NCBI GenBank assembly: GCA_035946615.1
Contig: DASYZB010000027.1
Coordinates: 1-64,000 of the forward strand
From: Verrucomicrobiia bacterium
GTDB taxonomy: Bacteria > Verrucomicrobiota > Verrucomicrobiia > Limisphaerales > UBA8199
Reading direction: 5' to 3'
DNA length: 64,000 bases
Made by a program: the position numbers and the translations under genes. Shown in pieces: positions 15,689 to 48,715 of this stretch (within the stretch, counting starts at the first letter, position 1; each line of letters starts with the position of its first letter). Under the pieces are notes generated by a model, which saw only the letters and a list, made by a program, of their open reading frames with translations, ran no database searches and was not told the DNA's origin.

Positions 15689-15902
15689 CTATCTGTTCCA
15701 AAGGCTCCGCGTTGGGACCCAGCTATCGTGCTGACCTTCCGATATATTCAAACACAGTCGTCTTCGAAACCCAACCGGATGCGCGTTGAGGGCCAGCCCC
15801 ACAAATCCGTTCGCCCGGCGCGAGCCCCAAAGCGTAGTAAGGGTCAGCCATGAAGTCACCAAACGTCAGAGCCTGGTTCTTTGTGTCAGTTTTCACGGTC
15901 AT
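15689..15902 (-). pseudogene. Frameshifted small conserved protein
   Basis: The reading begins MTVKTDTKNQALTFGDFMAD and after a one-base shift near GCTTTGGGGCTCGC continues SRRANGFVGLALNAHPVGF. Together these match a small verrucomicrobial family that I recall as having TKNQ-LTFGDF and KRRA-G-V-LA-NAH blocks. The shift breaks the frame, so it is a pseudogene. The rest of 15602-16534 holds repeat copy B (16088-16204) and no gene that I can support. Confidence 0.45.
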
Positions 15903-44935: not shown

Positions 44936-46804
44936 TCAGGCCTGCCAAATCATGTCGGCAACCGTCTTGCCGGCTGGGATGAAAGGCAGCACGTGCTCGG
45001 TGTACGGCACCACGATGTCAAGCACGTAGGGTTCCTCGGCATCGAGCATCCGCTGCAAGGCCGGGCGCAAGTCCTTCCGGTACACCACCCGCTCACATTT
45101 GACGTTGAAACTGTTGCACACCGCGACGTAATCGGGGTAAATCTGCTGGCGGTTGTCCGGGTCCCCAAGGTAAGTGTGGCCGCGGTTGCCTTTATAGAAT
45201 TTATCCTCCCACTGCATCACCATGCCCAGGTGCTGGTTATTCAGGATAATTGCCTTGGCAGCGATCTTTTCAATGTGCGCTGTGGCCAACTCCTGCACGT
45301 TCATCAGGAACGAGCCGTCGCCGTCGATATCAACGACCTGCCGGTTTGGGCAAGCCACCTTTGCGCCCAGGGCGGCGGGGTAGCCGTAGCCCATGGCGCC
45401 CAGCCCGGCGCTGGTCAAAAGCTGGCGGGGTGATTTGAATTTATAGAATTGGGCGGCCCACATCTGGTGCTGGCCGACGCCGGTAGTGATAATCGCCTCG
45501 CCATGGGTCAGCTCATACAGGGCCTCGATGGCCATTTGCGGGAGGATAACCTCTTTCTCGCGCCCCTTGAGGTGGTCGCGCATGTGCTGCGACTTCATCA
45601 CTTCGTCGCTCACCACGTAGCCAAAAGGGGCCTTGGCTTTCCAGGACTCGAGCTGCTTGTGCCAGGCGGTGAACTTCTTCTCGATCGGGCGTTCAGTAAC
45701 CATCTGGAGCAGCCGTCCAAGGGCGCACTTCACGTCGCTGACGATCGGCAGATTGGCCGGTTTGTTCTTATTGATCTCCGACGGATCAATATCCAGGTGT
45801 ACAATAGTGCCGGTTTCGCAGAACTTATCCACCCTGCCTGTGACGCGGTCATCGAAGCGCACACCGAAAGCCAGCAGCAAATCGGCTCCGGGCGCGATTT
45901 GATTCATTGGGTCGGTGAAGCTTTTGCGCCGCTCGAACTCGCCGTTGACGGCCCAATTGGCAAAAGCCGCCCCATGCATCCCGAGCCAGCGCAAGGAGAG
46001 GCGGTGCGACTCCGGAAATGCCCCGCAACCCATGATGGTGGTGGTGACCGGAATTTGGGCGGCTTCGGCAAACCGGCGCAGTTCATCGCTCGCGTTGCCG
46101 GTAATAATGCCACCCCCGGCATAGAAGAGAGGCCGCTCGGATTTTTCGATCAGCCCGATAATCTCGTTCAGCTCGATGTCACTGGCCTTTCGCGCGGGGT
46201 TATAACCCCGCATGTGGACCTCGCTTGGGAAGACCGGTTGGGTACGCGCCTGCTGGACGTTTTTGGGCAGGTCGATCAGCACCGGCCCGGGCCGGCCCGT
46301 TTGCGCGATGTGAAACGCTTCTTTCACAACGCGCGGAATATCGTTGATGTCGGTAATCAAATAGCTGTGCTTCACCACCGGCAGGGTCATACCGTAAATA
46401 TCAGTCTCCTGGAACCCCCCTTTGCCGATCATGGCCTGGGGCACCTGGCCGGTAATGGCTACCAACGGCACCGAGTCCATATAGGCGTCCGCGATGCCGG
46501 TGACGAGGTTGGTCGCCCCGGGCCCGCTGGTCGCCATGCACACCCCGGCCCGGCCAGTCGCCCGCGCGTAACCATCGGCCGCAAAGGCGCCTCCTTGCTC
46601 GTGCCGCGGCAGAACCGTGCGGATTTTCTTCGAGCGGGTTAGTGCCTGGTGAATTTCCATGCTCGCTCCGCCGGGATAGGCGAAGATGGTATCCACCCCT
46701 TCTCGTTCGAGGGCGTTCACGAGGATTTCGCTGCCGGACATGGGTGGCCCAAGCTCCACGCCTTTGTCGGCGGCTTTACTGGCGGTCTTTATAGTTTTGT
46801 TCAT
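44936..46804 (-). CDS. ilvB: Acetolactate synthase large subunit
   Basis: A 622-residue ThDP enzyme. It has [13 protein letters not shown], the catalytic Glu in [25 protein letters not shown], the FAD-binding middle domain, and the ThDP motif [15 protein letters not shown]...NNQHLG. It condenses two pyruvates, or pyruvate and 2-oxobutyrate, in the valine, leucine and isoleucine pathway. The frame is open to 46876, but that extension crosses the upstream terminator; [15 protein letters not shown] at 46804 is the sensible start. No ilvN regulatory subunit gene lies alongside, so that subunit must be elsewhere. Expression appears controlled by the attenuator at 46861-47000. Confidence 0.96.
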
Positions 46805-46860: not shown

Positions 46861-46900
46861 GCATAAAAAAACCCACGACCGTTTCCAGCCGTGGGTTTTT
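46861..46900 (-). terminator. ilvB attenuator terminator
   Basis: On the minus strand the stem AAAAACCCACG (46900-46890) pairs perfectly with CGTGGGTTTTT (46877-46867) over a 12-nt loop and runs into further T residues. It lies about 60 nt before the ilvB ATG and downstream of a Leu/Val-rich leader frame, so it is an internal attenuator rather than the end of a gene. Confidence 0.9.
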
Positions 46901-46927
46901 GTCGAAATCCAGTTCAGCTTCGACAAA
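46898..46927 (-). promoter_or_regulatory. ilvB antiterminator stem
   Basis: TTTGTCGAA (46927-46919) and TTCGACAAA (46906-46898) form a 9-bp perfect stem on the minus strand. Its 3' arm shares bases 46898-46900 with the start of the terminator stem, so both cannot be fully formed together. The 5' arm lies in the last codons of the leader frame, just before its stop at 46914, so a ribosome at the stop would cover it. Confidence 0.75.
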
Positions 46928-47000
46928 GCCCTACGGCGTCGTCACTTACGACGACGACCAGCAACAGAGCAACTTGCCGAATGCTTAACACAACTAACAC
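46914..47000 (-). CDS. ilvL: ilv leader peptide (attenuation)
   Basis: A 28-codon frame from GTG 47000, or 25 codons from GTG 46991, which has AAGGTG six bases upstream. It contains the run ALLLVVVV (codons GCT CTG TTG CTG GTC GTC GTC GTA), with further Val, Leu and Ile codons before it (VLVVLSI). It ends at TGA 46914. Such runs of regulatory branched-chain codons ahead of a terminator are the hallmark of ilv and leu leaders. Scarce charged Leu or Val tRNA would stall the ribosome on this run and favour the antiterminator. Confidence 0.85.
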
Positions 47001-47053
47001 CTTAATAAAAGGGCCCTGGCGGGTCAAGAAGATCTGCAAAAAATTAATCTCCT

Positions 47054-48715
47054 TCAGAGTCCCAGGAGCTTTTCCAGTTCGGGTTTGATGAAGACCAGGT
47101 CAATCGCACCTCGCACTACCCCGCCAATCAGCCAAGGGTTGAGGCCCGCTTCCTTTATCATCTCGCGGAGACGAACGCGCAAGCGGTCGCGGACCTGCTC
47201 GCGGAGCGGGCGGTCCATCTGCTCGAGCTTCAGCCCGTTGAGCGCCGTATCAATGGGCCGAATCGTCTCGGGTGTGTACTGTATCGGCCCAAAGGAGGTC
47301 TCTTGCTGAAGGAACTGCTGCGCCTTCTGGCGGCCAAGATCGTAATCATGGTCCCGATAGCGCCGGTCGAAAAATCCCGCAAAGGCGCAAAGCTCGGCCC
47401 CAGCCAATTCGTTCTGGCCGGCGGTGATGCCAAAGATGGTCATCTCGTCGCGAGAGGCAAGGCTGGCTGCCTTTTCCAAAGTCAGAATCGAATCGATCCA
47501 AACATCGCGCGTTGTTGCGGGCAGTCGGTTGTAATCGGACAGGAATTGTGCGCGCAGTCGAGCGCGGGCTTGATCGAGGGTCTCCGGCGCACGCCCGTTG
47601 CTCACCGGTGATTCGGTGGAGAACAAGCCGGGGAGCAGGGCGCTGGCCGCGTGTTGCAGAACAGCGGCGCGCTGATTGGCTTCGGGAAGGGGCTCGCGCA
47701 GCCAATCCCGCAGTTGCTCGGCCCGCCGGTTGAAGAGCGCCACTTGCGAGTTCACCGCTTCGGCCGTCACCCAATCCTGAAAACGCGCCTGGTCGAAAAT
47801 CGAGCCGGCCAGGCGCAGGGCCGTATTGCGGAAATTGGCCTGGCCGGCATTGAATGAGCCGCTGGCGGTCGAGGTCTTTGGACCGTGCGCAATGAACAGG
47901 TAGAAGCGGTTATCGACATCGAGATGGCCATCGATTTGATCGACCAGGTTTTTGGCCAGGCCCAATGGTTCGTTTTGAAACGTGCCTCCGTCCGTGTAGG
48001 CGAAAGCGCAGGCGCCGGTCAGGGGTGTAATGGGAGCTGGGTTGGTGTAGTCGGCGGCCTGGCGTTGCACCTCAATGACCCGGAACGCAAAGGGAAATGC
48101 GCCGCAGGATACTGCCGCGTTGCGCAGGGGGTCCCAAACCGCAAGAGCATCGTCCTGTGCATTCATCGCATCGAGGCGGACAGCCAGTTGATCCTGATGG
48201 CGCGTATAGATGAATTGTCCGGCAGGCCGGAGGGCGAGGCCGCAATCGACTCCGTTGAGGTTGGCCAGCGCCAGCCCCAGGTGCAACCGGGCCGCGCAGG
48301 CCGAGTGGCGAATGGGCGCAGGCGACGGCCCATTTTCGTAGCGAGCTGTGAGATAGCGCTTGGAAATATCAATTACAGATTGGGATGAGAAGATGGATTG
48401 GGACGGGTCATCCTGCCCATGCATCGCCAGGAGGGATTCAAGGTCCGCATCGATCACCCATGGGCTGTAGAGGGCATTCGAATAGGGACCGTCCAGGGAA
48501 TTTCTTTCAAACAAGAGCTTCTGGGCCGCAATGGTCGCACTCATGCCACCCGCCGAGGCGCCAGTGAGCACGTCGATGAAGAGCCTGCGTTCGGCGGGTG
48601 TGTCCGGGTTTTGGTTGTGCTGGCCGATGGCGTGAATGATTTCATAAAGCACGCCGGCCTCGAAACTGCCGAGCGATACCGCCCCCGAGATTGTGATGGC
48701 AAGGCGCTTGGACAT
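47054..48715 (-). CDS. Patatin-like phospholipase family protein
   Basis: A 553-residue protein. The oxyanion region is GAVSLGSFEAGVL, the nucleophile motif GASAGG gives Ser54, and the dyad Asp lies in YTDGGTFQNEP. These are the three patatin elements. The N-terminal 330 residues form the hydrolase. The C-terminal part is helical with no known motif. There is no signal peptide, so it is probably cytosolic or membrane-peripheral and acts on lipid acyl esters. It follows rsmD by 15 bp. Confidence 0.88.
   Translation of the reverse strand: MSKRLAITISGAVSLGSFEAGVLYEIIHAIGQHNQNPDTPAERRLFIDVLTGASAGGMSATIAAQKLLFERNSLDGPYSNALYSPWVIDADLESLLAMHGQDDPSQSIFSSQSVIDISKRYLTARYENGPSPAPIRHSACAARLHLGLALANLNGVDCGLALRPAGQFIYTRHQDQLAVRLDAMNAQDDALAVWDPLRNAAVSCGAFPFAFRVIEVQRQAADYTNPAPITPLTGACAFAYTDGGTFQNEPLGLAKNLVDQIDGHLDVDNRFYLFIAHGPKTSTASGSFNAGQANFRNTALRLAGSIFDQARFQDWVTAEAVNSQVALFNRRAEQLRDWLREPLPEANQRAAVLQHAASALLPGLFSTESPVSNGRAPETLDQARARLRAQFLSDYNRLPATTRDVWIDSILTLEKAASLASRDEMTIFGITAGQNELAGAELCAFAGFFDRRYRDHDYDLGRQKAQQFLQQETSFGPIQYTPETIRPIDTALNGLKLEQMDRPLREQVRDRLRVRLREMIKEAGLNPWLIGGVVRGAIDLVFIKPELEKLLGL

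Follow-up and report, generated by a model that had tools for sequence, protein, structure and literature searches.

The leader region of ilvB

The window analysed here, a stretch of 64,000 nucleotides from a Verrucomicrobiia bacterium, carries on its minus strand the gene ilvB (44936-46804), which encodes the 622-aa large subunit of acetolactate synthase, the enzyme with which the shared pathway to the branched-chain amino acids begins (TIGR00118; 693 bits, cut-off 538). Upstream of this gene and on the same strand, a predicted sigma-70-type promoter (46999-47027), made of TTGACC (47027-47022), a 17-bp spacer and TAAGGT (47004-46999), precedes a leader ORF of 25 codons (46914-46991, from GTG46991 to TGA46914). 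Direct reading recovers what a first-pass annotation of this DNA had described, namely the codons GCT CTG TTG CTG GTC GTC GTC GTA (46970-46947), or ALLLVVVV, the leader stop at TGA 46916-46914, and a 9-bp stem between 46919-46927 and 46898-46906.

Three segments of the leader RNA can enter into alternative pairings, each of them supported by folding and covariation. Segment 1 (UUCGGCAA, 46974-46981) forms a protector helix with 46919-46926. Segment 2 (GCCGUAGGGCUUUGUCGAA, 46919-46937), the 5′ arm of the antiterminator, lies inside the leader ORF, just before TGA46914, and is thus within reach of a ribosome at the leader stop, as proposed earlier. Segment 3 (UUCGACAAAAACCCACGGC, 46888-46906), the 3′ arm of the antiterminator, contains the terminator 5′ arm CCCACGGC. 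In the antiterminator, GCCGU-GGG-UUUGUCGAA (46937-46919) pairs with UUCGACAAA-CCC-ACGGC (46906-46888). The intrinsic terminator (46865-46895), supported by folding and by its pairing over 95 sequences, reads CCCACGGCUG-GAAA-CGGUCGUGGG (46895-46872) and is followed by a run of seven U residues (46871-46865). The hairpin and T-run formerly placed at 46867-46900 do exist, but the stem described as 11 bp is a 10-bp core with a GAAA loop, extended by A-U pairs. The whole leader RNA of 127 nt folds with -59.7 kcal/mol, which corresponds to z -6.3 relative to 200 dinucleotide shuffles.

Conservation of the element and its boundaries

The host, already suspected to be a Verrucomicrobium, belongs to a subdivision 3-like lineage of Verrucomicrobiota; its nearest named relatives are subdivision 3-type MAGs, and its order appears to be equivalent to Pedosphaerales. 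Across the host family and order, 97 complete ilvB upstream regions were read, representing about 50 family-level groups, and 96 of them carry the element, a count that sets aside one region cut off by a contig end (L174). The loss of leader codons and stems among relatives, which would have spoken against an attenuator, is therefore not what the comparison gives. Our alignment (A1) comprises 95 sequences, and does not include one further sequence that also carries the element (L096). The leader frame is open in all 95, insertions and deletions within its variable part add up to multiples of three in 93, and the stop keeps the same alignment position in 86. Codons -14 to -11 encode Val, Leu or Ile in 81-86% of the sequences (Val alone in 65-81%), a proportion that falls to 2-9% at codons -9 to -7, so that the regulatory codons conserved across the group are chiefly those for Val. 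The in-frame indels and this codon profile rule out a chance ORF. Every aligned sequence also has an intrinsic terminator followed by a U-run.

The hairpin also lies about 150 bp past the end of a patatin-like gene (47054-48715) on the same strand, whose transcripts it would stop too, and it might be taken as merely the terminator of that gene, next to an accidentally Val-rich frame. This explanation is very improbable, and the hairpin's identity as the patatin-like gene's terminator was rejected, because the upstream gene is not conserved: it was missing at every locus examined in relatives, although these keep the element, and unlike it the promoter, the leader frame and the covarying alternative helices are all conserved.

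A covariance model built from A1 was run on 286 genomes sampled across the class. Of the roughly 52 order members among them, 48 gave a match, counting one weak match (G092, E 1e-3), whereas matches outside the order are far weaker or absent. Nor was the element seen in the ilvB upstream regions of 21 genomes from other orders of the class, and sister orders are mostly without it. A generic scan of 77 ilvB upstream regions from other orders and phyla was positive only in L007 and L014, with thresholds so strict that L006, which carries the element, was missed. The same detector gave 0 of 80 positives inside ilvB and none on reverse-complemented upstream regions, and these empty controls, together with the presence of the element in 96 of 97 upstream regions, exclude a chance origin.

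Two particular cases may be mentioned. The one exception among the 97 upstream regions is that of the single-contig genome G082 (L146, contig C1), a member of the order that lacks the ilvB element, while a relative of the same genus (G031, L121) keeps a divergent copy; the absence is apparently a loss. In L014, from a Gemmatimonadota MAG, the region upstream of ilvB holds a leader rich in Val codons (MTHQITTSHIAITTAVVGRVVVLVPM) and a terminator, probably an attenuator in a further phylum.

Three competing helices

Covariation over the 95 sequences supports each of the alternative structures. In the antiterminator, 11 of 17 pairs have changed on both sides, with 35 such cells against 11.8 in shuffles; the protector helix between segments 1 and 2 has 54 both-side-changed cells against 21.7; and 97.5% of the terminator cells are paired. 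The covariation score of each of the three helices was reached by none of 500 shuffles, which leave the relatedness of the sequences in place; sliding the helix partners also lowers the score. The compensating switch of segments is clearest in individual sequences: the terminator arm CCCACGACC goes with a segment 2 of GGTCGGG in L122 and L140, and CCCGCGGC goes with GCCGCCGGG in L126.

Folding RNAs cut to mimic each ribosome position, a check akin to the masking suggested by the first-pass annotation, switches the structure as predicted. The full leader RNA folds into protector plus terminator; the RNA from 46940 to just short of the terminator 3′ arm (46882-46940) folds into the long antiterminator (-25 kcal/mol); and the RNA from 46904 onward folds into the terminator. 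Across the group, the same cuts give the antiterminator helices in 82 of 95 sequences and the terminator in all 95.

The overlap between antiterminator and terminator had been placed at 46898-46900; it exists, but it takes in the whole terminator 5′ arm. The three-nucleotide overlap was discarded as the whole switch, since the inner 9-bp helix and the terminator coexist in the fold of 46865-46940; in these models, the competition with the terminator comes from two outer helices, GCCGU:ACGGC and GGG:CCC. As soon as the terminator 3′ arm has been made, the terminator together with the inner helix of segments 2 and 3 is favoured over the full antiterminator by 8.3 kcal/mol (mean advantage over the 95 sequences, 7.5 kcal/mol), and antitermination would therefore have to be kinetic, set by the order of synthesis and not by equilibrium.

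The position of the regulatory codons agrees with such a switch. The last conserved Val codon (46949-46947) sits 9 nt before segment 2, and the footprint of a ribosome extends about 12 nt downstream of the start of the A-site codon. From these two distances, a stall at the last Val codon would free segment 2, and by the same geometry a ribosome at the leader stop would cover it.

Promoter and start of the leader

A motif TTGAC-N16-18-TAnnnT lies upstream of the leader in 83 of 94 windows from the group, against a mean of 1.3 and a maximum of 4 in shuffles, and in 70 of those 83 the first in-frame ATG or GTG occurs 6-10 nt past the -10 box. In the host, GTG46991 sits 7 nt downstream of the predicted -10 TAAGGT. 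The usual distance from a -10 box to the transcription start is about 7 nt, and because this spacing of the start codon recurs order-wide, the leader ORF of ilvB is probably leaderless or nearly so. Between the two starts considered previously, GTG46991 is the one homologous to the ATG of relatives; GTG47000 overlaps the predicted -10 and was rejected.

A probable ribosome-mediated attenuator

The region has a short leader ORF in which codons for the end-product amino acids abound, an intrinsic terminator lying between this ORF and ilvB, and, on the strength of covariation and folds, an antiterminator that excludes the terminator and a protector that excludes the antiterminator. It thereby presents all sequence-testable features of known ribosome-mediated attenuation, with the regulation itself predicted. 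Every component of the ilv attenuator proposed in the first-pass annotation was found, conserved and covarying, and we hold with high confidence that this is a putative ribosome-mediated transcription attenuator for ilvB, sensing charged tRNA-Val and probably tRNA-Leu.

As we envisage it, RNA polymerase would start at GTG46991 or a few bases from it, and a ribosome would begin on the leader. With plentiful Val-tRNA, this ribosome would reach TGA46914 and cover segment 2, and the terminator would form before ilvB. A ribosome stalled on the Leu and Val codons (46967-46947) would instead hold segment 1 and leave segment 2 free to pair with segment 3, which contains the terminator 5′ arm, so that the polymerase would read through. 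Should the leader not be translated, segments 1 and 2 would pair and the terminator would form again. In this scheme, what is observed is the anatomy, its conservation and the covariation of all three helices that compete; that the promoter is used, that the leader is translated, and that ribosomes stall and the polymerase reads on are predictions.

Attenuator-like anatomy can mislead: in Streptomyces coelicolor, where ilvB is regulated otherwise than by classical attenuation, altering the ilvB leader codons suspected of a regulatory role was reportedly without effect (PMC1262725). Leader translation might likewise control ilvB translation or the access of Rho, leaving a minor part to the choice between terminator and antiterminator, and the full antiterminator is indeed thermodynamically weaker than the terminator. 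We nevertheless consider this other route unlikely in the extreme, if marginally less so than the patatin-gene explanation, given the U-run terminator in all 95 aligned sequences, the covariation of its 5′ arm with segment 2, and the roughly 110 nt that separate the leader stop from the ilvB start. Transcription attenuation thus remains our preferred reading of the locus.

Known attenuators and novelty

The attenuators of enterobacterial ilvB, ilvG and leu (ilvL, leuL) also combine runs of Val and Leu codons with mutually exclusive protector, antiterminator and terminator helices. The enterobacterial leaders possess 5′ UTRs with ribosome-binding sites, whereas the promoter spacing in the host is too tight for one. 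The closest layout among known systems is that of Corynebacterium glutamicum ilvBNC, where a leader with Val codons (ilvL, MTIIRLVVVTARRLP) precedes ilvB, the transcription start is one nucleotide from the leader start, and terminator, antiterminator and anti-antiterminator hairpins occur (PMC11857589). That system belongs to another phylum, no sequence relation to it is evident or was sought, and the host ilvB stands apart from ilvN and ilvC. The Sinorhizobium meliloti trpL attenuator RNA (rnTrpL) starts at the leader start codon (PMC7298713), as predicted for the host, although it senses Trp and belongs to another operon and phylum. Both systems are precedents for a leaderless leader ORF (PMC11857589, PMC7298713).

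No leader family of Rfam 15 matched at its gathering threshold (best sub-threshold score, His_leader, 21.3 bits against 49), and a literature search found no amino acid attenuator described in Verrucomicrobiota, which is weak evidence as it covered open papers only. The element is a lineage-wide new family of a known mechanism, the principle being familiar and the family uncatalogued, and it is a candidate for Rfam. More tentatively, it may represent a class of near-leaderless attenuators in Verrucomicrobiota, order-wide and not yet catalogued, that would couple the loading of ribosomes to the first transcribed bases and serve ilvB and leuA, with look-alikes before a methyltransferase gene in other orders. 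Its occurrence in about 50 family-level groups, yet largely not in sister orders, offers a clean set for studying the origins of attenuators, and the spacing of its promoter would allow leaderless initiation on a regulatory ORF to be tested throughout the order.

Other leaders in the host and its class

The host genome carries leuA, with LeuA_dimer and HMGL domains, on another contig (C60). Its poly-Leu leader (L219 / L228, G000:C60; MNRNPGLLLLSSALLLSCAAAGF) has the same -10 TAAGGT as ilvB, followed 7 nt later by a GTG start (15605), with the leuA match beginning at 15865, and folding gives an antiterminator and a terminator. A poly-Leu attenuator of its own, of the design seen at ilvB, is thus predicted for leuA. 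Comparable leuA leaders occur in L211, L213 and L214. Away from the ilvB contig, ilvN lies together with ilvC, the latter named by eye from its sequence, and no attenuator was seen when the region upstream of ilvN was read by eye. One genome would thus keep ilvB and leuA under separate attenuators, with ilvN-ilvC not visibly attenuated.

In other families of the class, a model (R1) finds leaders rich in Val, Ser and Ala codons, with a similar terminator, before a gene for a SAM-dependent methyltransferase: L199 (G251), L200 (G203), L201 (G286), L203 (G264), L204 (G205), L206 (G295) and L208 (G190). The G251 leader resembles that genome's own ilvB attenuator (L198) and adjoins two methionine-biosynthesis-like genes, named by eye. 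In another family, a leader (MKLTLVVLLVKVVVVVVTSNEFARA) and a terminator precede a divergent acetolactate-synthase-like gene (L205, G232:C19).
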